The notes under the pieces are model-generated. The model had not been told where the DNA came from and did not search any database. It was given only the letters and a program-made list of their open reading frames with translations. Both the position numbers and the translations under genes were made by a program. Positions 1,933-39,231 of a DNA stretch of 43,633 nucleotides are shown here, piece after piece (position 1 is the first letter of the stretch; every line of letters starts with the position of its first letter). Source of the stretch: Bacteroidota bacterium (lineage in GTDB: Bacteria; Bacteroidota; Rhodothermia; Rhodothermales; Rubricoccaceae); assembly GCA_012960515.1 (NCBI GenBank), contig DUBD01000024.1, positions 1 to 43,633 of the forward strand, read 5' to 3'.

Positions 1933-1967
1933 GCTGGCGGCGGCCCTCGCCGAGACGAACCGCCAGC
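1933..1967. repeat. Inverted-pair hairpin GCTGGCGG...CCGCCAGC between two convergent gene ends
   Basis: GCTGGCGG 1933-1940, CCGCCAGC 1960-1967, CCTCGCCGAGA core. Confidence 0.8.
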
Positions 1968-1977
1968 GGGGCGGGAG

Positions 1978-4287
1978 CTAGAACCGCCAGCCGTACGCGC
2001 TCGCCACCGCGTCCCGGATCTCGATGCGGAGGGCCTCGGTGTCGCGGAACTGGCTGCCGTTGGAGCGCAACGCGCCCGTCAGGAAGAGGATCAGCCCTCC
2101 CTGCTGCTGCGGCATCCCGTACATGTAGGTGCGGTAGCCGTTGTGGAGGCCGCCGTGCCAGTAGACCTCGCTGTTCTGCGTCTGCCGCCGGGCTCGGATG
2201 CCGAGTTGCATCGTGTTGTTGGTGCAGGCCGCCTCCCGCACGCCCATCGCAGCGCCCACGCCATCGCGGCCGAGGAACTGGTCTACGGTGGCGCTCGCGA
2301 GGAGCCGCTGCCCATCGTAGACGCCGCCCTGGTTGAGCATGATCACGAAGTTCGCCAGGTCGGTCGCGGTGATCCGAAGACCGGCGGCGGCCTGGTTCGG
2401 ATAGACCTTGACGCCCCGCTTGCTCGTGGTGGTGCGAGTGGTGTCCGTGGAGTGGCCCCGCGCATACCACTCCCGCTGCATCGTGCGCCAGAAGTCCGTG
2501 CGGAAGGTCCCCCGCGTGTTGAGCGCCCAGAGGAAGCGGTCCATGTGCGCGTCGTACCCACCGTCCGCGGCGTCCTCGATGAGGGCCTGCACGAGAATGG
2601 AGTTGGCGCCGGAGTAGTCCACCATGTCTCCGGGGCTCAGCGTGTCCACGTCCACGATCTGGTTTCGCGAGGACGCCGGCGAGTCCCCGCGGAAGATGTC
2701 GCGGATGGTCGGCAGCGGACTCGCTCCTGCGTCCATCTCCTGCGCACCCGAGACCCCCTTCTCGTTGTCGATCCCGGCGCAGTGGGCGAGCAGGTGCGCG
2801 AGGCTGATCTGGTCCGCGCCAATCGATTCCAGATCCGCGGCACTCGGCATGTCCTCCGGGCCGACGATCCGGGACAGGATGCCGGTCTGTGTCAGGCTCA
2901 GGTCCCCGCTGTCCACGAGTTGGAGCGCCGCCGCATACGTCACCGGCTTGCTGATGGAGGCCGCGTCGAACGTCGTCCTCGGGTAGACGTAGCTCTCCGG
3001 CAGGTCGAACTCGCGCAGGCCGTAGCCGCGGGCCCACGCAACCTCGTTGTTCTCGATGAGCACGACGACGGCGCCCGTCACGCCATGGAGCTGCATCCGC
3101 TGGTAGATCGTGCTGTCCCCCGGCAGGCCGTGCTCCACGAGGTTGATGCGGTCGCCGGCGGCGGGCTCGGGCTCCGGCGTGTTGGAGATCATGGCCCAGA
3201 GCAACTGGTCCCCGTCGCGATGGAGCACGACGTGATCGATCCGGCGCTCGCTCTCCGTGCGGTAGCGTTCCAGCTGGCGGAGAAGCGACGCGGGCAGACC
3301 TCGCGAGGCGAACCAATCCTCCGCCACGAGCACCCACGCCCCTCCCGGCGCGATGGCAACCTCGTGGATGGGCCGCTTGCCCCGGTTGGCCGCCGCCATC
3401 GCTGCCCGAATGTCCGGGTCGAACGCGCTCGACGTCTCGGCCCAGAGCCCGCCGTCGCCGGTCATGACCCAGCCCGTGTCGGGGTCGTCGGAGAAGGCGA
3501 ACGAGGTCACGCGGGCGTCTCGCGCCTGCACCGCGCGGACCTTCTCCATGATGGAATCGGAGACGTTCGAGGTGCGCCGGAGATAGTCCTCCGCCACGAT
3601 GAGCCAGCGCCCGCCCGGCCCGAACGCGACCACGTCGATCTCGCGCCCGGACGCGATGTAGCGGTCGATCCACTCGCGGGGGCCGTCGGGGAAGCCTGGG
3701 CTGTAGCACGGGCGGTTGGCCGCGACCACCACCCACTCGCCCGAAGGCGTGAGCGCGGCGGTCTGGATGGCCGCCTGTGCGTCTCGCGCGGCGAGGAGTG
3801 CGTCCTGGAAGCCCTGCGGCAGCGCCGTGGAGTAGCGGACCCACATGCCCGGCGTGCGGGTGCCGTAGGCGTCCATGTACGCACGCGGCCAGCAGCCCTC
3901 GCGGCGCGACCAGATCTGCACGTTCCCTGCGCCCCGGTGCTGCACGGCGACCCCGAGCGCGCCCGCCTCGTCGAACGAGAGAAAGGCAGGGTAGTACTGG
4001 TCGTCGCTGCCCTGGATGCGGAAGGCGCCGTCGGGCTGCACGTCCCGCCACACCACATCCCCGACGTTCCAGTCCGGTCCCGCCGAGTCCGGCACGAAGG
4101 TGATGACCGCGCGCCCGCCCTCGATGGAGATCCGCATCCCGTTGTTGGACGGGTTGTTGCTATCGGTCCGGACCCACTCGCCGGTGAGGTCCACGCCCTC
4201 CAGTACCTGCGCCGCGGGCGAGGCGGCCCCCACCAGACCAAGAAGCACGAGAAAGAGAAGCGAGCGGAAGTGGGTCGGGCAGTGCAT
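1978..4287 (-). CDS. Secreted serine hydrolase, beta-lactamase/class C-like family, with large N-terminal repeat region
   Basis: Signal peptide MHCPTHFRSLLFLVLLGLVGAASPAAQ; SxxK motif in DAASISKPVTYAAAL; HGGLHNGYRTYMYG near the C-terminus. Confidence 0.85.
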   Translation of the reverse strand: MHCPTHFRSLLFLVLLGLVGAASPAAQVLEGVDLTGEWVRTDSNNPSNNGMRISIEGGRAVITFVPDSAGPDWNVGDVVWRDVQPDGAFRIQGSDDQYYPAFLSFDEAGALGVAVQHRGAGNVQIWSRREGCWPRAYMDAYGTRTPGMWVRYSTALPQGFQDALLAARDAQAAIQTAALTPSGEWVVVAANRPCYSPGFPDGPREWIDRYIASGREIDVVAFGPGGRWLIVAEDYLRRTSNVSDSIMEKVRAVQARDARVTSFAFSDDPDTGWVMTGDGGLWAETSSAFDPDIRAAMAAANRGKRPIHEVAIAPGGAWVLVAEDWFASRGLPASLLRQLERYRTESERRIDHVVLHRDGDQLLWAMISNTPEPEPAAGDRINLVEHGLPGDSTIYQRMQLHGVTGAVVVLIENNEVAWARGYGLREFDLPESYVYPRTTFDAASISKPVTYAAALQLVDSGDLSLTQTGILSRIVGPEDMPSAADLESIGADQISLAHLLAHCAGIDNEKGVSGAQEMDAGASPLPTIRDIFRGDSPASSRNQIVDVDTLSPGDMVDYSGANSILVQALIEDAADGGYDAHMDRFLWALNTRGTFRTDFWRTMQREWYARGHSTDTTRTTTSKRGVKVYPNQAAAGLRITATDLANFVIMLNQGGVYDGQRLLASATVDQFLGRDGVGAAMGVREAACTNNTMQLGIRARRQTQNSEVYWHGGLHNGYRTYMYGMPQQQGGLILFLTGALRSNGSQFRDTEALRIEIRDAVASAYGWRF

Positions 4288-4349
4288 GGGCGTGGCGGAG
4301 AGTCACTTCTAGCTACCCGAACCGGGCGCCGCGCCCCTCACCGCCGCGC

Positions 4350-4384
4350 GCTGGCGGCGGCCCTCGCCGAGAGCGACCGCCAGC
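4350..4384. repeat. Inverted-pair hairpin GCTGGCGG...CCGCCAGC downstream of nitrilase gene
   Basis: GCTGGCGG 4350-4357, CCGCCAGC 4377-4384; close copy of the 1933-1967 element. Confidence 0.8.
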
Positions 4385-4393
4385 GGAGCGGGG

Positions 4394-5215
4394 CTATCGC
4401 GCCAGCCAGTCCGCGTAAAGCTCCGGACGGCGGTCGCGGAGGAAGAGGCGGCGGGCGTGGGAGGTTTGCACCGCGCCGAGGTCCACGTCCGCGTAGAGGA
4501 TCTCCTCCGTGCCCTCGCCGGCGCGAGCGACCACGCGGCCGTCCGGCGCGCAGACGAAGCTCTCGCCCGCGAAGGTCAGCCGCTCCTCCGGCCCCACGCG
4601 GTTGACGAGCGCGGTGTAGTAGCCGTTCTGGAAGGCGGCCACGCGCATCTCGGCCTCGTAGAGCCCCTCCGGCCACTCGCCCACGGCCCCGGCCTGCGGG
4701 ATCACCACCACCTCGGCGCCGCTCAGCGCGAGGGCGCGCATGGCCTCCGGGTAGTGCCGGTCGTAGCAGATCGCCACGCCGATGCGGCCCGCGGCGGTCT
4801 CGTAGACGGGCAGTCCCTGGTCGCCCGGAGCGTAGTAGCCCTGCTCGTGGAACGCCTCGTAGTCCGTGATGTGGACCATCCGGGTGACGCCCAGGAGGGC
4901 CCCGTCCGCGTCGATCACCGGCGACGAGTCGAACGTGCGGTCGCCCTCCCGCTCGAAGAGGTTGAGGACCACGACCACGCCGCGCTCCTTCGCGCGCTCG
5001 CGGAAGGCGGTGACGGTGGGGCCGTCGAGCGGCTCGGCGTGCGCGAGGGTCTGGGGCCTGGCGTGGCGCTGCGGCCAGAAGGGGTGGAACGCGAGCTCGG
5101 CGAAGGCCACGAGGTCCGCCCCGGCATCGGCGGCGCGGTCGAAGGCGGCGAGCCCCCGCGCGAGGTTGGCGTCGAGGTCGGGCGTGGCGGGCTGCTGGAC
5201 GAGGGCCAGTTTCAT
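4394..5215 (-). CDS. Carbon-nitrogen hydrolase (nitrilase family; N-carbamoylputrescine amidase-like)
   Basis: MKLALVQQPATPDLDANLARG start; FAELAFHPF, RIGVAICYDRHYPEAMRALALSGAEVVVIPQA catalytic Cys motif. Confidence 0.88.
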   Translation of the reverse strand: MKLALVQQPATPDLDANLARGLAAFDRAADAGADLVAFAELAFHPFWPQRHARPQTLAHAEPLDGPTVTAFRERAKERGVVVVLNLFEREGDRTFDSSPVIDADGALLGVTRMVHITDYEAFHEQGYYAPGDQGLPVYETAAGRIGVAICYDRHYPEAMRALALSGAEVVVIPQAGAVGEWPEGLYEAEMRVAAFQNGYYTALVNRVGPEERLTFAGESFVCAPDGRVVARAGEGTEEILYADVDLGAVQTSHARRLFLRDRRPELYADWLAR

Positions 5216-5268
5216 TGGGGAGTGGGGAGTGGGGAGTGGGGAGTGGGGAGTGGGGAGTGGGGAGTGGA
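5216..5268. repeat. 7-bp tandem repeat (TGGGGAG)n, about 7.5 copies
   Basis: tggggagtggggagtggggag... read directly; abuts the nitrilase ATG (minus strand). Confidence 0.95.
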
Positions 5269-5344
5269 ATCGACCCCCGCGCGGCTGGCGGTGCCAGTCG
5301 GCGGGCGCGAACGGGGGCGGCGGCCTGCCCGCGCTCTCCCTCCG

Positions 5345-5352
5345 TAGCTTTG
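5345..5352 (+). promoter_or_regulatory. Candidate Bacteroidota-type -7 element TAGCTTTG (TAnnTTTG)
   Basis: Exact TAnnTTTG match 24 bp upstream of the ACT-protein GTG. Confidence 0.5.
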
Positions 5353-5375
5353 CTCCTCCCCTTCCCGCCGCTCCC

Positions 5376-5819
5376 GTGCCCGACGTCCGCGCCCTCATCG
5401 ACCGCATCGCTCACGCCCTCGGCGACCAGGCGACGCCCGAGCGCGTCGAGCACATCGCGCGGGCGGTCCTCCAGGCGGAGCGCACCGGCGCCCCCGCGCC
5501 CGCCCCGACCTCGTCGGCGGCCTCCGCCAGCGGGCCGGCGCCGGGCGACACCCGCTTCGTGGTGACGGCCTACGGCCGCGACACGCCCGGCGTGCTGGCG
5601 GCGCTCACCAGCGAGCTCGCCGCCCACGGCGCCAACGTCCTCGACGTCTCGCAGAAGGTGCTCCAGGGCTACTTCACCGTCGTCCTCTTCGCGGACCTCC
5701 CCGCCGACGGCCCCTCCCTCGCGACGGTCCGCGACCGCCTCCAGGCCCGCGGCGAGCCCCTCGGCGCCCGCGTCCTCGCGCAGCACGAGGAGCTCTTCCA
5801 GGCCATGCATCGGCCGTGA
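5376..5819 (+). CDS. ACT domain-containing regulatory protein (GcvR/UPF0237-like)
   Basis: GDTRFVVTAYGRDTPGVLAALTSELAAHGANVLDVSQKVLQGYFTVVLFADL; GTG start; upstream of a UPF0210 gene. Confidence 0.85.
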   Translation: MPDVRALIDRIAHALGDQATPERVEHIARAVLQAERTGAPAPAPTSSAASASGPAPGDTRFVVTAYGRDTPGVLAALTSELAAHGANVLDVSQKVLQGYFTVVLFADLPADGPSLATVRDRLQARGEPLGARVLAQHEELFQAMHRP

Positions 5820-6259
5820 GCGAGGCGGAGGGATACGGAATGCGGGAGGCTGAGGGATGGGGAGACTCTCCCGACGTGGCCCTCGTGAAAGAGTCGGGGG
5901 TCCAGAGCTATGAGGACCTCCGGGTGTGGCAGGACGGGATCGCGCTGACGGAAGCCGTGTACGACGCCAGCCGTTCGTTCCCGAGCGAGGAGCGGTTTGG
6001 CCTGACCTCCCAGATGCGCCGGGCCGCCGTCTCCATCCCGTCCAACATCGCGGAAGGTTGGGGCCGAGGCACACGCCAGGACTACCTCCGCTTTCTCCGC
6101 ATTGCGCGGGGCTCGCTCTTCGAGCTTCGTACCCAGGCCATCCTCGCTGAGCGAATCGGCCTGCTCGCCTCCGACCCATCGGCGGACCTCTTGCGTCGCA
6201 CGGATCACCTTCGCCGGATGCTGCACGGCCTCATCCGGTCACTGGAGTCCAGGGGCTAA
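5816..6259 (+). CDS. Four helix bundle protein (23S rRNA intervening-sequence protein / Avd-like family)
   Basis: YEDLRVWQDGIALTEAVYDASRSFPSEERFGLTSQMRRAAVSIPSNIAEGWGRG is the family signature; GTGA overlap with the previous gene. Confidence 0.92.
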   Translation: MSEAEGYGMREAEGWGDSPDVALVKESGVQSYEDLRVWQDGIALTEAVYDASRSFPSEERFGLTSQMRRAAVSIPSNIAEGWGRGTRQDYLRFLRIARGSLFELRTQAILAERIGLLASDPSADLLRRTDHLRRMLHGLIRSLESRG

Positions 6260-6280
6260 CCCCTCATCCCTCCATCCCCC

Positions 6281-7663
6281 ATGCCTCTCTCCCTCCCCGA
6301 GATCCTCGAAACCGTCCGCATGACGGAGGCCGACGCCTTCGACATCCGGACCGTGACCCTCGGCATCAGCCTCCGCGGCTGCGCCTCCCGCGACCCCGAG
6401 AGCACGCGGCAGAACATCTACGACCGGATCACGCAGACCGCGCGGCACCACGTGGAGGTGGCGCGCGAGGTGGAGAGCCTCTACGGCGTGGCCATCGCGA
6501 ACAAGCGGTGCTCCATCACGCCCGCGTCGCTCGTGGCGGACAACTTCTCGCCCGCCGACTTCGTCGCGCTGGCGGAGACGCTGGACCGGGCCGCGGACGC
6601 CATCGGCGTGGACTACCTCGCGGGGTTCTCCGCGCTCGTAGAGAAGGGGACCACGCCCGGCGACCGCGCGCTTATCGAGGCGCTGCCGGAGGCGCTGGCG
6701 ACGACGAACCGCGTGTGCTCGTCCGTGGCGTGCGGCAGCACGAAGGCCGGGATCAACGCGGACGCCGTGCTGGCCGTCGCCAAAATGATCAAGGCCACCG
6801 CCCGCCTCACCGCCGAGCGCGACTCCATCGGCTGCGCCAAGTTTGTGGCCTTCTGCAACGCCGTGGGGGACAACCCCTTCGTGGCGGGCGCCTTCCACGG
6901 GCCGAGCGAGCCCGGCGCGGCCATCAACGTGGGCATCTCCGGGCCGGGCGTGGTCCTCCGCGCCATCCGCCAGCTGGGCGATACCGCGGACTTCGGCGCG
7001 GTCACGGACGCCATCAAGCGGACCGCCTTCAAGATCACGCGCGCCGGCGAGCTCATCGGCCGCCGCGTGGCGGAGGCGCTCTCCGAGCGGAGCGGCCAGA
7101 CCATCCCCTTCGGCGTCGTGGACATCTCCCTCGCGCCGACCCCCGCCGAGCGCGACTCCGTGGGCGACATCCTCGTCGCGATGGGGCTGGAGTACGCGGG
7201 CGCGCCCGGCACGACGGCCGCCCTCGCGATGCTCAACGAGGCCGTCAAGCGCGGCGGGCTCATGGCGGCGCGGCACGTGGGCGGGCTGAGCGGCGCGTTC
7301 ATGCCCGTGAGCGAGGACCAGGCGATGATCGCCGCGGCGGAGAAGGGCCACCTCACGCTGGAGAAGCTGGAGGCCATGAGCGCGATCTGCTCCGTGGGCC
7401 TGGACATGGTCGCGATCCCGGGGGACACCCCGGCGGAGACCATCGCGGGCATCCTCTTCGACGAGTTCGCCATCGGCATGGTCAACGACAAGACGACGGC
7501 CGTGCGGATCCTCCCCGTCCACGGGAAGGGCGTCGGCGAGTGGGCGGACTACGGCGGGCTCCTGGGCCGGGCGCCCATCATGCCCGTCTCGGGGCTCTCC
7601 AGCGCCGTCTTCGCGCGGCGCGGCGGCCGCATCCCGGCCCCCATCCGCAGCCTCACCAACTGA
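6281..7663 (+). CDS. PFL family protein (UPF0210/DUF711)
   Basis: DIRTVTLGISLRGCA..., CSSVACGSTKAGINADAVLAVAKMIKATA, GISGPGVVLRAI. Confidence 0.93.
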   Translation: MPLSLPEILETVRMTEADAFDIRTVTLGISLRGCASRDPESTRQNIYDRITQTARHHVEVAREVESLYGVAIANKRCSITPASLVADNFSPADFVALAETLDRAADAIGVDYLAGFSALVEKGTTPGDRALIEALPEALATTNRVCSSVACGSTKAGINADAVLAVAKMIKATARLTAERDSIGCAKFVAFCNAVGDNPFVAGAFHGPSEPGAAINVGISGPGVVLRAIRQLGDTADFGAVTDAIKRTAFKITRAGELIGRRVAEALSERSGQTIPFGVVDISLAPTPAERDSVGDILVAMGLEYAGAPGTTAALAMLNEAVKRGGLMAARHVGGLSGAFMPVSEDQAMIAAAEKGHLTLEKLEAMSAICSVGLDMVAIPGDTPAETIAGILFDEFAIGMVNDKTTAVRILPVHGKGVGEWADYGGLLGRAPIMPVSGLSSAVFARRGGRIPAPIRSLTN

Positions 7664-7666
7664 TAC

Positions 7667-7701
7667 GCTGGCGGTTGCCCCCACCGAGCCCGACCGCCAG
7701 C
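7667..7701. repeat. Inverted-pair hairpin GCTGGCGG...CCGCCAGC between UPF0210 and SDR genes
   Basis: GCTGGCGG 7667-7674, CCGCCAGC 7694-7701. Confidence 0.75.
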
Positions 7702-7712
7702 CCACCGCCCCC

Positions 7713-8447
7713 ATGCGCGCGCTCGTCACCGGCACGAACGGAACCGTCGCGCCCGTCGTGGTGGACGCGCTCCGGGCGGAGGGCGCGACGGTCCTCGCGT
7801 GGGACCGCGCCGCGCACCCGCCCACCTCCGCCGAGAGCGTCCGCCAGTCGGTCGCGGAGATGGCTCCGGACTGGGTGCTCCACCTCGCGACGGGGTCGGA
7901 GGACTGGGCGGGATGGATCGCCCAAGCCTGTGCAGCACAAGGCCGCCGCGTGCTCTTTACCTCTTCGGTCTCCGTCTTCGCGCCCCGAGCCCACGGCCCC
8001 CTCCCGCCCAACGCCGAGCCGGATGCGACGGACGACTACGGCCGCTACAAAGCCCGCGCCGAGGCGCTCGTCCGCGAGGCCGCTCCGGACGCCGTGATCG
8101 CCCGGCTGGGGTGGCAGATCGGTCCCGCGCCGGGCACCAACACGATGACGGACTGGCTCCACCGCCAGTCCGCGGAGGGGCCGGTGGAGGCCAGCACGCG
8201 CTGGCTCCCCGCCTGCTCGTGGCTCCGCGACACCGCCGCCGCGCTGGCGGCGCTCGTCGGCCGTGCCGAAGGCGGCACGTTCCACCTCGACGGCAACAAG
8301 GGACTCTCCTTCTACGAGATCACCACGCGCCTCTCCGCCCGCCTCGGGCTGGACGCGGACATCCGCGCGGCGGACGCGCCCGTGATGGACCTCCGCCTGA
8401 GCGATCCGCGCATCACCGTCCGCGACATCGCGGATCGCCTCTCCTGA
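7713..8447 (+). CDS. NAD-dependent epimerase/dehydratase (RmlD-like SDR)
   Basis: MRALVTGTNGTVAPVVVDAL Rossmann motif; DDYGRYKARAEALV YxxxK. Confidence 0.85.
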   Translation: MRALVTGTNGTVAPVVVDALRAEGATVLAWDRAAHPPTSAESVRQSVAEMAPDWVLHLATGSEDWAGWIAQACAAQGRRVLFTSSVSVFAPRAHGPLPPNAEPDATDDYGRYKARAEALVREAAPDAVIARLGWQIGPAPGTNTMTDWLHRQSAEGPVEASTRWLPACSWLRDTAAALAALVGRAEGGTFHLDGNKGLSFYEITTRLSARLGLDADIRAADAPVMDLRLSDPRITVRDIADRLS

Positions 8448-8456
8448 CACCGGCCG

Positions 8457-8475
8457 GCTGGCGGCGTCCGCCAGC
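8457..8475. repeat. Compact inverted pair GCTGGCGG-cgt-CCGCCAGC between convergent genes
   Basis: Perfect 8-bp arms with 3-nt spacer. Confidence 0.85.
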
Positions 8476-8490
8476 GCGAGGCGCGGGGCC

Positions 8491-9219
8491 TCAGGCCCGG
8501 CCGCGGTACAGCGTCACGATCCCGAACGTCAGCGGCTTCGCGGTGCACTGCGTAAAGCCCACCGCGCGCATCTCGTCCACGAACGCCTGCCCGTCCGGGA
8601 ACTGCGCGACGGACTCCGGGAGGTACTCGTACGCCTCGGAGGACCCGCTCACCGCCTTCCCGATCCGCGGCAGGATGTGCTTGGAGTACGCCTCGTACGC
8701 CTGCTTGACGGGGAACGCCTGGGGGTGGCTGAACTCCAGCACCACGAGCGGCGCGCCCGGCCGGAGCACGCGGCGCATCCCCGCCAGCCCGGCGCGAAGG
8801 TCCTCGAAGTTGCGGACGCCGAACGCCACCGTCGCGCCGTCGAACGTGTCGTCGTCGAAGGGGAGCGCGGCGGCGTCGCCCTGGACGAGCGTGATCTGGT
8901 CCGAGAGCTTCTTCTTGGCCACCTTCTTCCGCCCCAGCTCCAGCATCCCGTCCGAGATGTCCACGCCGACGACCTCGCGCGGCTCCGCGTCCAGGAGCGC
9001 TACGGCGAGGTCCGCCGTACCCGTCGCCACGTCCATGAGCCGGTCCGGCTGCCCCGCGAGCGCCGTCCGCAGGGACTGCACCGCCTTCTTCCGCCACCAC
9101 ACGTCGATCCCGCCGGAGAGCAGGCGGTTGAGCGCGTCGTAGCGCGGGGCGATCTCGTCGAACATGGCCTCGACCTTCTCCTTCTTACCGGCGGCCTGAC
9201 CGAGGGGGGGCTTCGTCAT
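8491..9219 (-). CDS. ubiE: Demethylmenaquinone methyltransferase / 2-methoxy-6-polyprenyl-1,4-benzoquinol methylase
   Basis: KKEKVEAMFDEIAPRYDALNRLLSGGIDVWWRKKAV; LMDVATGTADLA; VVGVDISDGMLELGR. Confidence 0.95.
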   Translation of the reverse strand: MTKPPLGQAAGKKEKVEAMFDEIAPRYDALNRLLSGGIDVWWRKKAVQSLRTALAGQPDRLMDVATGTADLAVALLDAEPREVVGVDISDGMLELGRKKVAKKKLSDQITLVQGDAAALPFDDDTFDGATVAFGVRNFEDLRAGLAGMRRVLRPGAPLVVLEFSHPQAFPVKQAYEAYSKHILPRIGKAVSGSSEAYEYLPESVAQFPDGQAFVDEMRAVGFTQCTAKPLTFGIVTLYRGRA

Positions 9220-9369
9220 CTCAGCGGGGAACGGGGGGCGTAAGGACGCGCGTTCGGCGCAGCGGTGCCAAGAAGACCGCGCGATGGGAGGCCTTCACCC
9301 GGAGCTTTCACTATTTTCTGAAACCTGCCGATTCTGCCTCCGGTACCCCACGCGTCCGCTCTCGCCCCC

Positions 9370-10704
9370 GTGCCCCGCAGCGTCCTCACCGCCACCGACC
9401 CCCGCGAGCGCCTCGTGCGCCGCGCCGCCCGTGCCCTTCGGTCGGGCTCCGGGGTGGTCCGCGTCGAGGTGCCATGGCCCGAGGCGCCGGAGCCGCTCGC
9501 CTGGCTGGCGGCCCAGACAAACGCGGAGACGGCGTACTGGCACGGCCGCGATGACGGCCTCTGCCGAGCCGCGCTCGGGGTCGTGCACGAGATCGCTGGC
9601 GAGGACGTAACCGCCCGGCTGGCGGACGCGGCGGCGGCGCTCCCCGAGGGCTCCGCCTACCTCGGCGGCCTCCGGTTCGACGGCGCGATGGACCCCGCTC
9701 GCGAGTGGGCGGGCTTCGGCGAGGGACGGTTCGTGCTCCCACGCATCGAACTCGTGACGCACGGCGGCGAGACGACGCTCGCCCTCCACGCCCTCCCCGG
9801 CCACGACACCGCCGAGAGCCTCCGCCAGTCGCTCGCGGACGTCCGCATGGATGGGCCCGCCCTCGGTGGCTCGCTGGACTTCCCCGTCGCGCGGGTGGAC
9901 CGCCCGGACCGCGACGGCTGGCACTCCGCCGTCACCGACGCGCTGGCGGCCATGGAGCGCGGCGAGATGGAGAAAGTCGTCCTCGCGCGCCGCGCGACGT
10001 ACCGCTTCGAGGAGCCGCTGGACCCCGCCGCCCTCCTCGCCCGGCTGACGGAGGCTGCGCCTCGCGCCTTCCACGTCCTCCTCTCCGATGGCGCCGGCCG
10101 GCGGTTCCTCGCGGCCACGCCCGAGCGGCTCGTCCGCGTAGACGCCGAGGCCGCCTGGACCGAGGCCGTCGCGGGCACCCGCCGCCGCGGAGACGGCCCG
10201 GACGCCCGCTTCTTCCACGACGAGCTGGCGGAGAGCGAGAAGGACCGCCGCGAGCACGCCTTCGTGCGGGACTTCATTTCCGAGGCCCTCGCACCGCTCA
10301 CGTCCGTGATCTGCGTCGAGCCGCCGGTCCAGATTGAGGCGGCGCGCGTGCGCCACCTCAAGACGCCCGTCCGCGCGACGCTCCGCGAGGGCGTGACCCC
10401 GCTGGAGGTCATGACGGCGCTCCACCCCACGCCCGCCGTCGGCGGGACGCCCACGCCCGCCGCGCTCGGCGCCATCCGCCAGCTGGAAGGCTTCGACCGC
10501 GGACTCTACGCCGGTCCGGTCGGCTGGGTCTCGCGCGATGCGGCCGAGTTCGCCGTCGGCATCCGGAGCGGGCTGCTCTGCGGGGCGGACCTCGCGCTGT
10601 ACGCGGGCGCCGGCATCGTGCCGGGCTCCGTCCCGGAGGCCGAGTGGCACGAGACGGAAGCCAAGCTCGGCGGCTTCGCCGACGCGCTCGGGCTGGAGGG
10701 GTGA
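9370..10704 (+). CDS. menF: Isochorismate synthase
   Basis: MEKVVLARRATYRF; HELAESEKDRREHAFVRDFI; LHPTPAVGGTPTPAA; FDRGLYAGPVGWV chorismate-binding motifs; followed by menD. Confidence 0.93.
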   Translation: MPRSVLTATDPRERLVRRAARALRSGSGVVRVEVPWPEAPEPLAWLAAQTNAETAYWHGRDDGLCRAALGVVHEIAGEDVTARLADAAAALPEGSAYLGGLRFDGAMDPAREWAGFGEGRFVLPRIELVTHGGETTLALHALPGHDTAESLRQSLADVRMDGPALGGSLDFPVARVDRPDRDGWHSAVTDALAAMERGEMEKVVLARRATYRFEEPLDPAALLARLTEAAPRAFHVLLSDGAGRRFLAATPERLVRVDAEAAWTEAVAGTRRRGDGPDARFFHDELAESEKDRREHAFVRDFISEALAPLTSVICVEPPVQIEAARVRHLKTPVRATLREGVTPLEVMTALHPTPAVGGTPTPAALGAIRQLEGFDRGLYAGPVGWVSRDAAEFAVGIRSGLLCGADLALYAGAGIVPGSVPEAEWHETEAKLGGFADALGLEG

Positions 10705-12461: not shown

Positions 12462-12523
12462 ACGGCGCGAGGCCCGACCGAACCGGCCGAGCCTCGCGGG
12501 AATCGCGTTCTGGAACGAAGCGT

Positions 12524-24860: not shown

Positions 24861-24863
24861 CCA

Positions 24864-24911: not shown

Positions 24912-24921
24912 CCGTCCGCGG

Positions 24922-26658: not shown

Positions 26659-26686
26659 GAGAACGCGGGATCAGGAGGAGCAGGGG

Positions 26687-26732: not shown

Positions 26733-26736
26733 CCGC

Positions 26737-26771
26737 GCTGGCGACGGCTCTCGGCGAGAGGTGCCGCCAGT
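26737..26771. repeat. Inverted-pair hairpin GCTGGCGA...CCGCCAGT with inner CTCTCGGCGAGAG
   Basis: Arms 26737-26744 and 26764-26771. Confidence 0.7.
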
Positions 26772-26860
26772 CCGGCGAGCGCTCCGGTACAGAGCCGGCC
26801 CCGCACCCACCACGATGCGAGGCCGACTCCGAGGAGGCCGGAGCCTCTGGCGAACCCTCC

Positions 26861-28423: not shown

Positions 28424-28443
28424 GGAGGAGGGGGAGTAGGAGG

Positions 28444-28492
28444 GTGAGCCACTTCCCCCTTGTAGCCAAACGCCCGCCTCGCTTTATCATGC
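28444..28492 (-). promoter_or_regulatory. Shared promoter-like block, copy C, overlapping the ECF start codon region
   Basis: CATGATAAAGCGAGGCGGGCGTTTGGCTACAAGGGGGAAGTGGCTCAC. Confidence 0.5.
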
Positions 28493-31421: not shown

Positions 31422-31439
31422 CCCGAGCGCCCCGCTGAA

Positions 31440-31473
31440 CTGGCGGTTCCTCTCGCCGGGCGCCACCGCCAGC
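31440..31473. repeat. Inverted-pair hairpin CTGGCGG...CCGCCAG downstream of the kinase
   Basis: Arms 31440-31446 and 31466-31473. Confidence 0.7.
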
Positions 31474-31571
31474 GCGGCGAGACTCTCGGACGCTTGACGA
31501 ACGGCCTGCGTGGAGAGGCGTACCCTGTTCCTGCACGACCCCAACCACCTCGGCCCCACGGCCGCCCCGCC

Positions 31572-32867
31572 ATGGATCACAAGGAAGGACAGTACAAGGT
31601 CGCCAACCTCGCGCTCGCCGAGGACGGCCGCAAGCGGATCGAGTGGGCCGAGAGCCGGATGCCGGTCCTCATGCGCCTCCGAGAGGAGTACAGCCAGAGC
31701 CAGCCCTTCGCCGGCTACAAGATCACCGGCTGCCTCCACGTCACGAAGGAGACCGCCGTGCTCATCGAGACGCTGAAGGCGTGCGGCGCCGAGGTGGCGT
31801 GGAGCGGCTGCAACCCGCTCTCCACCAACGACTCCGTGGCCGCCGCCCTCGCGCTCGGCCCCAACGGCGACGGGGACGGCGTGGAGATCTACGCGTGGTA
31901 CGGCCAGGACACCGAGGACTTCTACTGGTGCATCGACCGGACGATCGACAAGACGCCGGACACCACCCTGGACGACGGCGCCGACCTCATCTTCCGCGTC
32001 CACTCCGCCTTCCCGGAGAAGACCAAGGACATCATCGGCGGCAGCGAGGAGACCACGACCGGCGTCCACCGCCTCCGCGCGATGGCGGACGACGGTAAGT
32101 TGGGCTACCCCGTCTACGCCGTCAACGACGCCGAGACGAAGTGGGACTTCGACAACGTCTACGGGACGGGTCAGTCCACGCTGGACGGCATCCTCCGCGC
32201 CTCGTCCGTGCTGATCGCGGGCAAGAACTTCGTCGTCGCCGGCTACGGCCACTGCGGCCGCGGCGTCGCGATGCGCGCGAAGGGCATGGGCGCCAACGTC
32301 ATCGTCACCGAGGTCAAGCCGACGGCCGCCCTCAAGGCCACGCTGGACGGCATGCGCGTGATGCCGATGGCGGAGGCCGCCAAGGTGGGCGACATCTTCG
32401 TGACCGCGACCGGCATGAAGGACGTCATCCGCGGCGACCACTTCGTCAACATGAAGGAGGGCGCCATCGTGTGCAACACGGGCCACTACGACGTGGAGCT
32501 CAACCTCGCCGAGCTGGCGGAGCTTTCCACGGACGCCCGCATGATCCGCGACGACAACCGCGAGTACACGCTGGAGAACGGCAAGAAGATCTACGTCCTC
32601 GCGGACGGCCGCCTCGTGAACCTCGCCGCCGCGGAGGGCCACCCCTCCGAGGTCATGGACATGAGCTTCGCGAACCAGCTCCAGGCCCACCTCGCGCTCA
32701 TCCGCGCGAAGGAGGCCGGCGAGACCCTGGAGAACACGGTCATGGACCTCCCCGAGGAGCTCGACCAGGAGATCGCCGGGATCAAGCTGGAGACGATGGG
32801 CCTCGCCATCGACTCGCTGACGGACGAGCAGGTGGTCTACGCCACCGACTACTCCGCCGGCACCTGA
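31572..32867 (+). CDS. ahcY: Adenosylhomocysteinase
   Basis: VLMRLREEYSQSQPFAGYKITGCLHVTKETAVLIETL; VVAGYGHCGRGVAMRAKGMGANVIVTEV; NTGHYDVELN. Confidence 0.97.
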   Translation: MDHKEGQYKVANLALAEDGRKRIEWAESRMPVLMRLREEYSQSQPFAGYKITGCLHVTKETAVLIETLKACGAEVAWSGCNPLSTNDSVAAALALGPNGDGDGVEIYAWYGQDTEDFYWCIDRTIDKTPDTTLDDGADLIFRVHSAFPEKTKDIIGGSEETTTGVHRLRAMADDGKLGYPVYAVNDAETKWDFDNVYGTGQSTLDGILRASSVLIAGKNFVVAGYGHCGRGVAMRAKGMGANVIVTEVKPTAALKATLDGMRVMPMAEAAKVGDIFVTATGMKDVIRGDHFVNMKEGAIVCNTGHYDVELNLAELAELSTDARMIRDDNREYTLENGKKIYVLADGRLVNLAAAEGHPSEVMDMSFANQLQAHLALIRAKEAGETLENTVMDLPEELDQEIAGIKLETMGLAIDSLTDEQVVYATDYSAGT

Positions 32868-32870
32868 CCC

Positions 32871-32905
32871 GCTGGCGGCCGCGCTCGCCGAGTGCCGCCG
32901 CCAGC
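32871..32905. repeat. Inverted-pair hairpin GCTGGCGG...CCGCCAGC just after ahcY
   Basis: Arms 32871-32878 and 32898-32905. Confidence 0.8.
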
Positions 32906-32944
32906 CCGAACTGGGACGGCTACCGCCATAGCCGCCCAGAAAAG

Positions 32945-32990
32945 CGCGCCCGTTCCCCTTCTCAGGGAGCGGGCGCGCGCCTGTTTATTC
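32945..32990 (+). terminator. Rho-independent-like terminator downstream of ahcY
   Basis: GCGCGCCCGTTCCC-cttctca-GGGAGCGGGCGCGC (14-bp stem, one G-U) with A-tract before and gcctgtttatt after. Confidence 0.8.
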
Positions 32991-33073
32991 TGGGCCTCGC
33001 GAGAATCTCCCGGCCCGTGAGGGCTCCCGCGCCCGGACCCGGTAGACGACTAGTGGACTCCCACCCCACCTCC

Positions 33074-33592
33074 ATGACCCGACTCCTCCTCTTCTCCCTC
33101 GCGCTCTCGCTCGCCGCCTGCGACACCGAAGCGCCCCCCTCATCCGCAAACGCCAGCACGCCCCTCGTCCTCGCCTCGCTGACGGCGAAGGGCGGCGAGC
33201 ACCCCGTCTCCGAGAACGCCAGCGTCGTTGTGGAAGGCGAGACGGTGATCCTCAAGGTGGACGGGCGCGAGATCGCGCTGAAGGCGGGCGAGGCCTACCT
33301 CCTCGGCCACGTCCTCACGGGTGCCGGCTACGAGGCCATTCCCGGCTCCGTGCGCGAGGACCTCCCGCCGCCGCGCCGCGGGGGCGACCGCTGCGAGCCC
33401 CCCTCCGAGGGCGAAGGGGTCACGGTCGTCGGCGGCGTGATGGCGACGAAGTGCCCGCCGCCGCCGCCGCCGCTCCGCCTCAAGGCGGGCGTGCTGCAGG
33501 AGCTCCTGGGCGGCTCCGCCGAAGCCATCCCCGCCCCGGCCGAGGCCGACTGGCAGCCGGTCCCCGGCGGCCTCGTAGCGCCGCTCCGCTAG
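33074..33592 (+). CDS. Putative lipoprotein
   Basis: MTRLLLFSLALSLAACDTE lipobox (LAAC); 172 aa. Confidence 0.8.
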   Translation: MTRLLLFSLALSLAACDTEAPPSSANASTPLVLASLTAKGGEHPVSENASVVVEGETVILKVDGREIALKAGEAYLLGHVLTGAGYEAIPGSVREDLPPPRRGGDRCEPPSEGEGVTVVGGVMATKCPPPPPPLRLKAGVLQELLGGSAEAIPAPAEADWQPVPGGLVAPLR

Positions 33593-33614
33593 AGGCTTTC
33601 GCCTCCCCTTCTCC

Positions 33615-33643
33615 GCGGGGTCTGGCCAGGTGCCAGGCCCCGC
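33615..33643. terminator. Hairpin between convergent lipoprotein and kinase genes
   Basis: GCGGGGTCTGG-ccaggtg-CCAGGCCCCGC, one G-U. Confidence 0.6.
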
Positions 33644-33650
33644 GTCTCGT

Positions 33651-36197
33651 TCATCCCCCCTCCAACGCCGCCCGCTGGCGGCGGACCTCGGCGGCCTCGG
33701 CAGAGCGCCCGAGCTCGTCCAGCACGTCCGCCAGCGTGCCGAGGATGCCGGGCCGGCTCGGGCTCTGCGGCGCCAGCCGCTCCGCGTCCGCCGCGACAGA
33801 GCGGAGCGCGCGCAGCCCCTCGCCCTCACGCCCGAGGCGCACGAGGGCGACCGCCCGGCGAGTCCGCGCGAGCAGCGTCCGGTCGTCGTCCTCGCCCAGG
33901 TCGTCCGCGAAGGCGCCCGCACCGGCATCGAGGAGCGGGAGCGCCTCGGCGGCGCGGTCCGTGTCCAGAAGGAGGCCGCCGAGCGCCACGCGCGTGTACT
34001 CCCGCCAGAGATGGTCGTCCTCCAGCGCGGACCGCTCGTACGCCGCGAGCGCCTGCCGGTAGAACGGCTCCGCCGTTGCGGGGTCGTCGTGGTGCAGGAC
34101 GGCGAGGGTGTAGAGGCTCTGCGCCGTGCGGTAGTCGCCTCGGCCGTAGGCGCGCTCGTAGACCGCCAGCGCGGCGCGGTGGAGGGAGTCCGCGCGGACG
34201 GCGTGGCCTCCGGCGCTCTCGGCCTCCGCGAAGTCGTAGAGCGCGTCTGCCGTGCGCGGGTCCGTCGGGCCGAAGGCGCGGCGGGCGAGTGCCGTCGCGC
34301 GGCGGTAGAGCGGGAGCGCGGCCTCCAGGCTGTCGCCGTCCGCCAGTTCGTTCGCGAGGCCGAGCAGGGCCGCCGTCTGCTGCGCCGGCTCCCTCGCGTT
34401 GCGGATCGCCTCGCGGTAGAGCGCCTTGGACGCGTCCGATTCGTACTGGCGGTAGTGGATCTCTGCGAGCGCGATCTGCGCCTCGGCGAGGTCGTTCGGC
34501 CGGCGGCCACCGCGGAGCAGCCGGACCGCCTCCTCCCCCGCCGCGATGCCCTCCTCGTAGCGCCGCTGTGCCGTGAGCGACTGCGCGAGCCACGTCAGCG
34601 GAATCGCCACGTCCGCATGATCCGCGCCCTGCGCGCGGCGGCGGACCTCCACGGCCTTCGCGAGGACGGAGTCCGCTGTGGGGAACTCGCCGAGGCTGAG
34701 CCCGAGCCGCCCGAGCCCTTCCAGCAGCGACGCCTGCACGAGCGGCTGGCGGTCCAGCGCGGCGGCCTGACGGAGCCCCGGCGCGAGGAGGTCGGCCGGT
34801 TTCATGTCGCCGCCTTCCAGCTCCACCGGGTCCACGGACTCGAACATCCCGAGCACGTACTCCAGCGTCGCGTTGGCGCGCGTGGCCTCGCGGGCCGTCT
34901 CGCGCGCCTGCCACAGCACCGCCGCGATCCCGCCCGCCAGCGCGAGCGTGAGCGCCACCGCCGCAGCCACGGCGCCTTTGTGCCGCCGGACGAACCGCGA
35001 GGCGCGGTACCCGAGGCTGTCGCCTCGCGCCTCCACCGGCCGGCCGTCCACGTAGCGCCGGAGATCGTCCGCCAGTTCGCCGGCCGTGGCGTACCGCCGC
35101 TCCGGCTCTTTGCGGAGCGCCTTGAGGATGATGGCGTCCAGGTCGCCGCGGAGGGCGCGCGAGGACGCCGACCATTGCTCGTGCGCGGACGAGGCCTCGC
35201 TCGGGGCCTCCACCGTGGCAACGGCGTCGCTGGGACGCGTCGGCGCCTGCTCGCGCACGATGCGGGCCACCTCCGCTGGGGCGTGGCTCGGGAACGCGTA
35301 CGGCCGCTTCCCGACGAGCAGTTCGTAGAGCATCACGCCGAGCGCGTACACGTCCGTCGCCGCGGTGATGGGCTCGCCTGCCACCTGCTCCGGCGCGGCG
35401 TAGGCCGGCGTCAGCGCGCCGCCCGTGCGCGTGAGGAGATCGTCGTCGTCCTCATCCAGCGCCTTCGCGATGCCGAAGTCCAGCAGCTTCACCCGCGGCG
35501 TGCCGGTCTCGTCCTCCGCCACGAACACGTTGCTCGGCTTCAGATCGCGGTGCACCACGAGGAGACGGTGCGCGTGGGCCACGGCGTCGCACGCGTCCAG
35601 CGCGAGCGCCAGCCGGTCGGCGAGTCCCAGCTGGCGGTCCTCGGCGTAGGTCGTGAGCGGCTCGCCGTCCACCCGCTCCATGATGAAGTAGGGGACGCCC
35701 TCGGGGCCGTCCGGGCCGGTCTCCGTCACGCCGCCGTCCAGCAGCCGCGCGATGCCGGGGTGGTCCAGCCGCGCGAGCAGCTTTCGCTCCCGCTCGAACC
35801 GGCGCACGGCCTCCTGCGAGTGGAGCCCCGCCCGCACCACCTTCAACGCGACCGTCTTTTCGAACGCTCCGTCGGTCCGCTCCGCCGCGTAGACCACGCC
35901 CATCCCGCCGCGGCCCAGCTCCCCCACCACGCGATACCCCTCGATGCCCACCGGCGGCGCACTGTCCAGGTCGAACACGGAGCCGAGGCCCTGGTCCAGG
36001 ATGGAGAGCGAGCGCTCGTCGAAGTCCAGCATGGCCTCCACAATGCGCCGCAACTCACCGTCCCCGCCGCACTCACGGTCGAGGAACGCCTCGCGGTCGG
36101 CGGGGGGAACGTCGTACGCCTCCGCGACGATGGCGAGGGAACGCCGTCGCCGCCGGACGTCCGCGCTGTCGGTGGGCTCCGGCGCGTCGGGGGGCAT
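33651..36197 (-). CDS. Serine/threonine protein kinase with TPR repeats
   Basis: YRVVGELGRGGMGVVYAAER; VVHRDLKPSNVFV; KLLDFGIAKAL; TPR-rich C-terminus; start set at MPPDAPEPTD. Confidence 0.94.
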   Translation of the reverse strand: MPPDAPEPTDSADVRRRRRSLAIVAEAYDVPPADREAFLDRECGGDGELRRIVEAMLDFDERSLSILDQGLGSVFDLDSAPPVGIEGYRVVGELGRGGMGVVYAAERTDGAFEKTVALKVVRAGLHSQEAVRRFERERKLLARLDHPGIARLLDGGVTETGPDGPEGVPYFIMERVDGEPLTTYAEDRQLGLADRLALALDACDAVAHAHRLLVVHRDLKPSNVFVAEDETGTPRVKLLDFGIAKALDEDDDDLLTRTGGALTPAYAAPEQVAGEPITAATDVYALGVMLYELLVGKRPYAFPSHAPAEVARIVREQAPTRPSDAVATVEAPSEASSAHEQWSASSRALRGDLDAIILKALRKEPERRYATAGELADDLRRYVDGRPVEARGDSLGYRASRFVRRHKGAVAAAVALTLALAGGIAAVLWQARETAREATRANATLEYVLGMFESVDPVELEGGDMKPADLLAPGLRQAAALDRQPLVQASLLEGLGRLGLSLGEFPTADSVLAKAVEVRRRAQGADHADVAIPLTWLAQSLTAQRRYEEGIAAGEEAVRLLRGGRRPNDLAEAQIALAEIHYRQYESDASKALYREAIRNAREPAQQTAALLGLANELADGDSLEAALPLYRRATALARRAFGPTDPRTADALYDFAEAESAGGHAVRADSLHRAALAVYERAYGRGDYRTAQSLYTLAVLHHDDPATAEPFYRQALAAYERSALEDDHLWREYTRVALGGLLLDTDRAAEALPLLDAGAGAFADDLGEDDDRTLLARTRRAVALVRLGREGEGLRALRSVAADAERLAPQSPSRPGILGTLADVLDELGRSAEAAEVRRQRAALEGG

Positions 36198-36399
36198 AGC
36201 AGGGAGGGTCGGCAGATGCAGTATCGCGCTGGAACGCAGCTCGTGCCCCCTCCCCCCTCTCGCCCCGACCGGAGACACCGCCAGCGTCACGCCCTACACA
36301 CTGATATTGCGAGGTTTACCGCATGTGAATCCGTTCTGCCCCCGGACCCTCCGGGATCTCGCTCGGTTAGACCCGCCTCCTGTTCATCCCCCTCTCTCC

Positions 36400-36885
36400 A
36401 TGAAGCGCTTTTTCTCCCTCTCCCTCGCGCTTGCCCTGGGCCTCACCGCGTGCGCGGAAGAGCCCGAGACCGACCCCGTCGTGGACGACGTGGACGCGGT
36501 CGCCGTGGACCCCGCTCCAGTGCCAGACACCATGGCCGCAGACACCATGGCTGCGGCCATGACGGCCCCAGAGGTCTCGCTCGACGGCACCCTTGAGGCC
36601 GCTGGCGACGACATCACGGCCATCCCAGTCGCCGGCGCGCTGGACAACATCAACGGTTGGATCGCCCGGCTCGACGGTGCCGAGTTCACCAACGCCGCCG
36701 AGATCCGCGAGGGCCTCATGACCCTCCGCGACCAGCTCCAGAACGACCCGCTCGACGGCGCCGCCATCGGCGAGACGCTGACGAACCTGGGCGACTGGAC
36801 CGCCGAATCGGCTCCGGACAACGACCAGATTCAGGCACTCGCGAGCGCGCTCCAGACGGGCGGCGCGAAGCTGACGGGCATGTAA
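36400..36885 (+). CDS. Putative lipoprotein
   Basis: MKRFFSLSLALALGLTACAEE lipobox; 161 aa. Confidence 0.8.
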   Translation: MKRFFSLSLALALGLTACAEEPETDPVVDDVDAVAVDPAPVPDTMAADTMAAAMTAPEVSLDGTLEAAGDDITAIPVAGALDNINGWIARLDGAEFTNAAEIREGLMTLRDQLQNDPLDGAAIGETLTNLGDWTAESAPDNDQIQALASALQTGGAKLTGM

Positions 36886-36907
36886 GCCCACCCGCGTCTC
36901 CGACGCC

Positions 36908-36941
36908 AGCGGGGCGGCTTCCTTCTGGGGGCCGCCCCGCT
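36908..36941 (+). terminator. Strong hairpin downstream of lipoprotein gene
   Basis: AGCGGGGCGGC-ttccttctgggg-GCCGCCCCGCT (11-bp perfect stem). Confidence 0.65.
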
Positions 36942-36955
36942 CCCGTTCCGTCTCG

Positions 36956-36974
36956 GCTGGCGGCGGCCGCCAGC
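36956..36974. repeat. Compact inverted pair GCTGGCGG-cgg-CCGCCAGC
   Basis: Perfect arms, 3-nt spacer. Confidence 0.85.
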
Positions 36975-37063
36975 GGCGCGAGGGCACCCCGAGACGTGCG
37001 CCGTTCATGCCGCCTCCACGCTCGCGCGGGTAGCTTCCGCGCCCCACTCAGACCCCCGCACGC

Positions 37064-37789
37064 ATGGGCCGCATGTTCGAGAAGCGCAAGCACACGATGT
37101 TCGCGCGCTACGACCGCATGGCGAAGCAGTTCTCCCGCATCGGGAAGGAGATCGTGATCGCCGTCAAGTCCGGAGGGCCGGACCCCGACATGAACCCCCT
37201 GCTCCGGCGGGCCATGCAGAACGCCAAGGGCGTCAACATGCCCAAGGACAAGGTGGAGGCCGCCATCAAGCGGGCCATGGGGAAGGACACCGCCAACTAC
37301 GACGAGGTGCTCTACGAGGGCTACGGCCCACACGGCGTGCCCATCCTCGTGGAGACGGCCACGGACAACGTGAACCGGACCGTCGCCAACCTCCGCGCGG
37401 TGTTCTCGCGAGGCGGCGGCAACCTCGGCAACTCCGGCTCCGTCGCCTTCCAGTTCACCAAGATGGGCGCCTTCCAGCTGGACCCCGCCACCGTCGGCGA
37501 CCGCGACGAGTTGGAGTTGGAGCTCATCGACGAGGGGCTGGAAGAGTTGGGCGAAGGCACGGCCGAGGACGGGCGCGACGTGCTCGTCGCGCGGTGCGCG
37601 TTCTCGGACTTCGGCCAGATGCAGAAAGCGCTGGAAGCGCGGGACATCGAGCCCATCGCGGCGACCGCCGAGTGGGTCCCCAGCACCACCACCGAACTAC
37701 CCGACGAGCAATCGGACGAGGTGCTGGAGCTCGTCGCCAAGCTGGAGGCCGACGAGGACGTGCAGACCGTCTTCCACAACCTGGCCTGA
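37064..37789 (+). CDS. yebC: YebC/PmpR family DNA-binding regulatory protein
   Basis: [83 protein letters not shown]. Confidence 0.95.
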
Positions 37790-37817
37790 GCCCGGACGGG
37801 CGGCCGCCCCGCGCGCG

Positions 37818-38681
37818 ATGTCCGCCCTCCCCCGCCCCGCCGTCCTCGCGCTGACGAGTCTGGTGATGGCCGCGTTCGCGGCCAACTCCGTGCTCGCCCG
37901 GCTGGCGCTCGTCGCGACCGAGACCGGCGCGGCCTCGTTCACCGCCCTCCGGCTCGTGGCCGGCGCGGCGATGCTCGCGCTCGTCCTCCGGCTGCGTCCG
38001 CCAGCGGGGCGAGCGGAGGGGCCGCGGGGCGACTGGGTCTCGGCGGCGGCGCTGTTCGCGTACGCGGCCGCCTTCTCCTTCGCGTACCTCTCCCTCGCGA
38101 CGGGCACGGGCGCGCTCCTCCTCTTCGGCGCCGTGCAGCTGACGATGATCGGCTGGGGACTGGTGCAAGGCGAGCGGATGGGCGTGGTGCGCTGGCTGGG
38201 CATCGCCCTCGCGATGGCGGGGCTCGTGGTGCTCGTCGCGCCTGGGGTGGAGGCGCCCCCGGCCGGAGCGGCGGCGCTCATGGCCCTCTCGGGCGCTGCC
38301 TGGGGCGTGTACTCGCTTCGGGGCCGAGGCGTGGGAGCTCCCGTCGCGGCGTCTGCGGGCAACTTCTGGCGGGCCGCAGTGTTCGGCCTCGGACTGCTCG
38401 GCGTGGCCGCGGTGTGGCCCGGCTTCGCGCCCCGCACCGATGGCGCGGGCGTGAGCTACGCCGTCCTCTCCGGCGCCGTCACCTCCGGGTTGGGCTACGT
38501 GCTGTGGTACCGCGTCCTCCCAGCCCTCCGCGCTGCCTCCGCCGCGACGGTCCAACTCAGCGTCCCCGTGCTGGCCGCGCTCGGAGGCGTGGCGTTCGTG
38601 GGCGAGGACGTGACGGTCCGCCTCCTGCTGGCGACGGCCGCGACGTTGGGCGGCATCGCGCTGGTGGTGCGAGCGCGATAG
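37818..38681 (+). CDS. EamA/DMT family transporter
   Basis: ~10 hydrophobic helices; SALPRPAVLALTSLVMAAFAANSVLARLAL; two EamA-like halves. Confidence 0.88.
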   Translation: MSALPRPAVLALTSLVMAAFAANSVLARLALVATETGAASFTALRLVAGAAMLALVLRLRPPAGRAEGPRGDWVSAAALFAYAAAFSFAYLSLATGTGALLLFGAVQLTMIGWGLVQGERMGVVRWLGIALAMAGLVVLVAPGVEAPPAGAAALMALSGAAWGVYSLRGRGVGAPVAASAGNFWRAAVFGLGLLGVAAVWPGFAPRTDGAGVSYAVLSGAVTSGLGYVLWYRVLPALRAASAATVQLSVPVLAALGGVAFVGEDVTVRLLLATAATLGGIALVVRAR

Positions 38682-38820
38682 GCGCGGAACCTGGCGGCGG
38701 GGCTCAGCGGTTTCCCCCTCTCCAGCAGCGGAGGAGCGGGCAATACCCTCTGCCTCGTACGTTGTAGCCCCTTCTCCTTTTCCACTCCAGGGTCTCCCGC
38801 CACCCCTGGCCCCGGCGGAC

Positions 38821-39207
38821 GTGCCCCCTTTGCCTCCTCGCCCCCCGAGCCTCCTGCTCCAGGTGGTTCACCTGTACCTGGCCGTCGTCGATGCGGGCGA
38901 GCGGCCGGTGGAGCTGCACGAGCGTAGCCGGGCGATCAGCCTCGCGCAGCAATGGGCGCAGGAAGAAGACGCCGACGCCGTGGAGGCCATCGTGGACACG
39001 GCGTACGTCGCCGTCCGGGCCGGAACCGACGTGGAGAAGATCGCGCGGGAGGTGGTGCGCCGGCTCCAGCCCGCCGACTGCCTCCGCCTGCTGGCGGACC
39101 TCGGGCGCATGGCGAAGGCGGACGGCCACCTCAGCCTCCACGAGGCGCGGACCATCGCCTCTATCCGCGCGGCCTTCGCGCGGGAGCAGCGCGCGCTGGC
39201 GGCCTGA
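38821..39207 (+). CDS. Small TerB-like helical protein
   Basis: LLADLGRMAKADGHLSLHEARTIASIRAAF; GTG start; 128 aa. Confidence 0.6.
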   Translation: MPPLPPRPPSLLLQVVHLYLAVVDAGERPVELHERSRAISLAQQWAQEEDADAVEAIVDTAYVAVRAGTDVEKIAREVVRRLQPADCLRLLADLGRMAKADGHLSLHEARTIASIRAAFAREQRALAA

Positions 39208-39231
39208 CCCGCGCCGATCGGGGCCGCCAGC
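39195..39231. repeat. Inverted pair GCTGGCGG...CCGCCAGC spanning the stop codon of the TerB-like gene
   Basis: Left arm 39195-39202 encodes the final Leu-Ala-Ala; right arm 39224-39231. Confidence 0.7.

Follow-up and report, generated by a model that had tools for sequence, protein, structure and literature searches.

A hyperabundant octamer with dialects and facing pairs at gene ends in Rubricoccaceae, a possible self-recognition word

The word GCTGGCGG in the window and in its genome

The stretch of DNA analysed here (the window; 43,633 nucleotides) is an entire contig (C24; DUBD01000024.1) of a single draft assembly, G000 (3.88 Mb, 298 contigs, 91.7% complete). Along with genes for a DUF711 protein, an S-adenosylmethionine synthetase and an S-adenosylhomocysteine hydrolase (ahcY), it carries 83 exact copies of the octamer GCTGGCGG, 43 on the + strand and 40 on the - strand, compared to expectations of 8.0 ± 2.8 from dinucleotide shuffles and 25.7 from a fourth-order Markov model. 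The DUF711 protein is 85% identical to a protein of 'Rubrivirga sp.' SW42617_bin_3 and 83% identical to one of the relative G007, and the host, judged from its sequences, lies near Rubrivirga in the family Rubricoccaceae, phylum Rhodothermota. In the kinship labels as assigned in our genome set, G001 belongs to the same genus as G000, and G002-G008 belong to the same family. Genes were called with a simple in-house caller, so that coding and intergenic fractions are approximate, and tests of sequence context in the relatives used samples of some 180-440 kb per genome.

The excess extends to the whole genome. We counted 8,020 copies of GCTGGCGG in G000 (one per about 480 bases, or 2,068 per Mb), which are divided equally between the strands (4,050 and 3,970), as is usual for uptake sequences, while the reversed word occurs 1,599 times (797 + 802). 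A sequence-only reading of the window had pointed to copies within genes on both strands, all of which are present to within about 17 bases.

One account of this abundance would make it a by-product of codon use, high GC content, terminator hairpins or REP-like mobile repeats, and the commonest frame of GCTGGCGG within genes is indeed CTG-GCG (Leu-Ala). We permuted codons among synonymous positions inside each gene and found 123 ± 8.5 copies after the shuffle, compared to 433 in the sampled coding DNA (3.5-fold). Since 123 copies survive the permutation and 433 are present, codon use is not sufficient, and codon bias as the full cause of the excess was ruled out. In a larger coding sample, GCTGGCGG ranked first of all 8-mers (489 copies compared to 139 after the synonymous shuffle; z 29.7), and in each of five genomes tested in this way the genome's own word ranked first. 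Between genes, where codons play no part, we found 136 copies compared to 5.4 predicted by a Markov model (25-fold).

The reversed word was of limited use as a control. Two genomes of another family of the phylum (G124 and G212, family f39), for which no recC match is listed, contain GCTGGYGG about four times as often as its reversed form. Because of these near-fourfold ratios, which may reflect codon use or another word system and which lend the by-product account some support, shuffles were used as the main control. Against that account, GC-rich relatives show no excess of GCTGGCGG, and single copies lie on both strands and in all gene frames, which is not the pattern of insertions.

Facing pairs at gene ends

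Copies of GCTGGCGG are denser between genes (4.2 per kb) than within them (1.7 per kb), with convergent neighbours giving the highest intergenic density (6.8 per kb) and divergent neighbours the lowest (3.1 per kb). In G000, the word lies within 70 bp of 38% of gene 3' ends, compared to 16% of 5' sides; the corresponding values for the different word of G001, described below, are 65% and 42%. Where neighbouring intergenic copies lie close together, they mostly form facing pairs. The sequence-only reading had placed such pairs at no fewer than twelve spots in the window, immediately after stop codons. Of the twelve that it listed, nine hold exact GCTGGCGG..CCGCCAGC pairs; a single arm is imperfect at two spots, and both arms at one. 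The distance to a stop codon is mostly about 20 bases or less, but it is greater for the pairs at 14768 and 36956. The features of the window, none of which is assigned to one strand, are as follows.

325..42680, all 83 exact copies of GCTGGCGG, 57 in called genes and 26 in the 5,197 bp outside
1933..1967, exact facing pair with arms 19 bases apart and CTCGCCGAG in the middle, between the stop codons of two convergent genes
4350..4384, exact facing pair with arms 19 bases apart; a - strand stop codon lies 9 bases away
7667..7701, exact facing pair with arms 19 bases apart, just 3' of the DUF711 gene (ORF 6281-7663 on the + strand)
8457..8475, exact facing pair with arms 3 bases apart, between the stop codons of two convergent genes
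14768..14790, facing pair with GCTGGCGC as its imperfect left arm, 92 bases from a stop codon
23028..23076, exact facing pair with arms 33 bases apart and an inner CTCTCG/CGAGAG stem, 3' of the S-adenosylmethionine synthetase gene
24864..24911, exact facing pair with arms 32 bases apart; a - strand stop codon lies 10 bases away
26737..26776, degenerate pair, both arms imperfect (GCTGGCGA / CCGCCAGT), inner CTCTCGGCGAGAG
31439..31473, facing pair with ACTGGCGG as its imperfect left arm, 3' of the kinase ORF 29109-31421
32871..32905, exact facing pair, 3 bases past the ahcY stop codon
36956..36974, exact facing pair with arms 3 bases apart, 70 bases from a stop codon
39195..39231, exact facing pair with arms 21 bases apart, overlapping one called gene at its end and adjoining the stop codon of a convergent gene

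The inner CTCTCG..CGAGAG stem that had been seen in several pairs is a real feature: in a 281-kb sample of G000, 11 of the 31 intergenic pairs share a 19-base gap centred on CTCGSCGAG. The commonest intergenic pair in G001 is a perfect palindrome, GCCTCTGGCGCCAGAGGC. Most of the pairs tested form hairpins stronger than those of shuffled sequences. The pairs had been taken for terminators, but we found a T-tract (at least 5 T in the next 10 bases) after none of the 41 gene-end pairs in the two genomes that use GCTGGCGG, G000 and G007, and after 4 of 67 pairs in G001. Thus, since no T-tracts follow them, the pairs are not ordinary intrinsic terminators. This result also weighs against the by-product account, which, together with the results of the shuffles, we consider very improbable. 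The frequency of the word is explained neither by codons nor by GC content, and the pairs are not confined to the window; equal strand use with inverted pairs at 3' ends is the distribution that the sequence-only reading had associated with the DNA uptake sequences (DUS) of Neisseriaceae.

Dialects, flanks and turnover among relatives

The word is shared by one relative, and other words take its place in the rest of the word-bearing genomes. Among 60 relatives, G007, which belongs to another genus of the family, has an excess of GCTGGCGG as strong as that of G000, whereas G001, of the same genus as G000, has no strong excess. Counts of k-mers in sampled stretches showed that the word of G001 is GCCTCTGGCG and that of G004 and G006 is CCGAGGCGG. 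Over whole genomes, GCCTCTGGCG, a strict 10-mer, occurs 14,176 times in G001 (61 times reversed) and at most 99 times in every other relative; CCGAGGCGG occurs 4,084 times in G004, 3,300 in G006 and 2,523 in G008. Each dialect word is in excess in its home genome and near background elsewhere, with the exception of GCTGGCGG in G004, where intergenic DNA shows a lesser excess (24 compared to 4.6) beside the main word CGAGGCGG, in what looks like a relict of an earlier dialect. In other families, we found no comparable word in samples of up to 20 kb. Some local repeats are also far above expectation, namely AAGCGGGGAA (10 copies in L039 of G007) and ACCCGTTCG (12 copies in L076 of G004).

We found that recognition of the words is strict, since their one-mismatch forms are mostly near background; the clearest enriched variant of GCTGGCGG is GCTGGCGC (17/5.8 and 25/6.5). 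Around the core, single copies of GCTGGCGG in G000 and G007 favour CTCGCC on the left (-8 to -3) and TCGGCG(A) on the right (from +7), and these preferences, which span -8 to +14, are present between genes and on either gene strand. An amino-acid origin of the flanks was ruled out on this ground and because they occur in several frames. The left and right preferences are independent of each other, and the lack of compensating pairs excludes a stem formed by the flanks of a single word. Since the flanks are independent, do not base-pair and are present in every class of copy, a protein probably contacts duplex DNA over about 30 bp. G006 shares TCG at +7 despite its different core; after removal of inverted partners, GCCTCTGGCG in G001 shows no flank of this kind.

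The words turn over quickly and are somewhat protected under a shared dialect and lost otherwise: of the exact in-gene copies of G000, 10 of 39 are kept in G007 (control 13.7%), compared to 3 of 67 in G001 (control 14.8%). At orthologous gene ends, the co-occurrence of two dialects is at chance level (19 of 128 with both; p = 0.58), and site-by-site replacement was rejected as a general route. The ahcY gene end (32871..32905) is suggestive of a dialect swap at one site, in that G007 has the identical pair in the same place, G004 has a CCGCCTCGG/CCGAGGCGG pair, and G001 has a single GCCTCTGGCG. Behind the word pair at this gene end, several genomes share a conserved ctaccgccatag ... gagcgcccg ... 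cgggcg ... ttt (L173, L174, L175, L177, L178), which could be the actual terminator or an RNA element.

Within G001, GCCTCTGGCG is depleted from accessory DNA. We counted 41-90 copies per 20 kb on the chromosome, 35 on the accessory contig C10 (L038), which is at about half chromosomal density, and 3 on the accessory contig C11 (L218), for which the figure covers the first 20 kb. Such depletion would be expected if the word marks resident DNA.

A mark of this kind could also resemble the highly iterated palindromes (HIP) of cyanobacteria, with a nucleoid or repair protein binding the word, or a methyltransferase modifying it, and the word kept to maintain the chromosome and not for uptake or RecBCD. 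The density of GCTGGCGG is in or above the HIP range of 1,000-2,000 per Mb, other words substitute in some relatives as they do for HIP (PMC4390886), and both the duplex-type extended motif and the dyad-like paired elements would suit a bound protein. However, HIP words are palindromes associated with methyltransferases (PMC4390886), and the cores GCTGGCGG, GCCTCTGGCG and CCGAGGCGG are not palindromic, only the pairs are. No candidate protein was found, but no search for one, or for a matching DNA methyltransferase, was made. We regard this account as unlikely, though less so than a by-product of composition.

Uptake and recombination as sources of the word

We tentatively favour the view that GCTGGCGG forms the core of a word for self-recognition across the genome, analogous to the DUS of Neisseriaceae and the uptake signal sequences (USS) of Pasteurellaceae, since the strict core, the flanks, the dialects, the intergenic inverted pairs and the relict words all match those systems. 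Like DUS, which also have dialects and inverted pairs at terminators, the words described here are strict and non-palindromic, are found in thousands of copies and form intergenic stem-loop pairs, with 10-12 bases in DUS (PMC3630211); they differ in that they belong to another phylum, are GC-rich, reach 14,176 copies, form pairs without a T-tract and have dialects that cut across genus assignments. Like the USS of Haemophilus influenzae, they combine a short strict core with weaker flank preferences over about 30 bp (PMC7811141), but here the flanks lie on both sides and are GC-rich, and the cores are unrelated save for a shared GCGG.

If this analogy holds, a DNA-binding protein would prefer DNA with CTCGCCCC-GCTGGCGG-N6-TCGGCGAG, that is, the core in a context of about 30 bp, and this protein would most likely be the receptor of a type-IV-pilus-like uptake machine feeding ComEC. 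Preferential uptake and recombination of word-bearing DNA would then accumulate the word wherever the sequence tolerates it, at synonymous positions within genes and in the spacers that follow stop codons, and the receptor of each lineage would have its own dialect. The sequence-only reading had drawn the same analogy; the genome-wide excess, strand symmetry, gene-end pairs and dialects support it, whereas the receptor, the uptake step itself and the drive to accumulate are what we infer from them.

The genes for uptake offer mixed evidence. ComEC is present in all genomes checked, and a PilB-type ATPase is found in 8 of 9 genomes of the family. In G004, pilB and pilC lie beside genes for two proteins of 143-148 amino acids that start with MGQQQLLLLV (L082:152-4970); these have a long hydrophobic N-terminal helix and a pilin-like layout and match no family, N_methyl included, and they may be atypical pilin-like proteins. 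The predicted fold of the pilin-like protein has a mean pLDDT of 53, too low for a structure search. An earlier view that word-bearing genomes lack type IV pili was withdrawn in light of the PilB-type ATPases and the G004 pilB-pilC locus. The accessory contig C11 of G001 carries canonical pilins and a PilB-type ATPase. Several points weigh against an uptake origin, however: no PilB-type ATPase was found in the G000 assembly (91.7% complete), and no canonical pilins were found in 5 of the 6 word-bearing genomes. Furthermore, the uptake machinery does not track the word, because family members without the word also carry ComEC and a PilB-type ATPase; recC, in contrast, does track it. The likeness of the octamer to Chi would have to be a coincidence.

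We considered that GCTGGCGG might instead be the Chi site of a RecBCD enzyme acquired by the lineage. RecC would read the word on the 3'-ended strand during unwinding, whereupon the enzyme would switch from degradation to RecA loading; facing pairs would serve breaks arriving from either side, and the dialects would be shifts of Chi that accompany RecC divergence. As the sequence-only reading had remarked, GCTGGCGG is one base from the Chi of E. coli (GCTGGTGG), and it is among five predicted proteobacterial Chi motifs. It is also one base from the Chi of Pseudomonas syringae, GCTGGCGC, which is the variant enriched here; the P. syringae enzyme probably also reads GCTGGCG+T/G, and its Chi is unskewed (PMC8022716, PMC5959072). 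The inner TCTGGCGC of the G001 word is one base from GCTGGCGC, although the dialect words other than GCTGGCGG are less close to proven Chi.

The distribution of the enzyme adds support. G000 has a complete recC-recB-recD cluster (contig C4, L193:1822-10959), and among 60 relatives recC is confined to the six genomes that bear a word, all of which have it. Of the residues in the E. coli Chi tunnel, RecC retains L134, D136, R142 and R186, whereas T40, Q44, L64, W70 and D133 are mostly changed (the G008 sequence is unreliable, with gaps), and the most different word and the most diverged RecC both belong to G001 (44% compared to 61-66%). The cluster is rare in the order (6 of 60 relatives), whereas some other families of the phylum commonly have it.

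On the other side, a single gain may underlie the match between recC and the word, and a RecC tree shows no grouping by word. RecBCD as a sufficient cause of the word was rejected, because the other RecC-bearing families of the phylum lack hyperabundant GCTGGYGG, although a different word could serve as Chi in them; the letters of the recC loci were examined for one of these families. The strand skew that would mark a Chi-like role was not seen in the chromosome of G001, where the strands are balanced in 19 of 19 stretches, but this does not separate the word from the unskewed Chi of P. syringae. More difficult for this account, the words are 9-15 times denser than Chi in E. coli (1,008 copies), pairing at gene ends is not a feature of Chi, and a strict 10-mer dialect and flanks from -8 to +14, which together suggest a motif of duplex type, are ill-suited to an octamer read as a single strand. 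We thus hold a Chi origin to be a serious but somewhat less probable candidate than an uptake-like word, and the two are compatible with each other. More speculatively, and with little confidence, the word may have grown from, or may double as, the Chi of the acquired RecBCD, with uptake and recombination biases reinforcing the same word in an independent case of uptake-like marking in Rhodothermota whose dialects switch between sister species.

To our knowledge, hyperabundant self-recognition words are established in few lineages, namely DUS in Neisseriaceae, USS in Pasteurellaceae and HIP in cyanobacteria. We found no earlier report of the present words in the open-access literature, our coverage of which was partial. 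They would extend this list to a distant phylum, where a 10-mer reaches 14,176 copies, dialects differ within one genus and recBCD tracks the word, and they supply candidate Chi sequences outside Proteobacteria. In this family, it becomes directly testable whether such words are built by biased uptake, by biased recombination or by both, and how a genome switches from one word to another.

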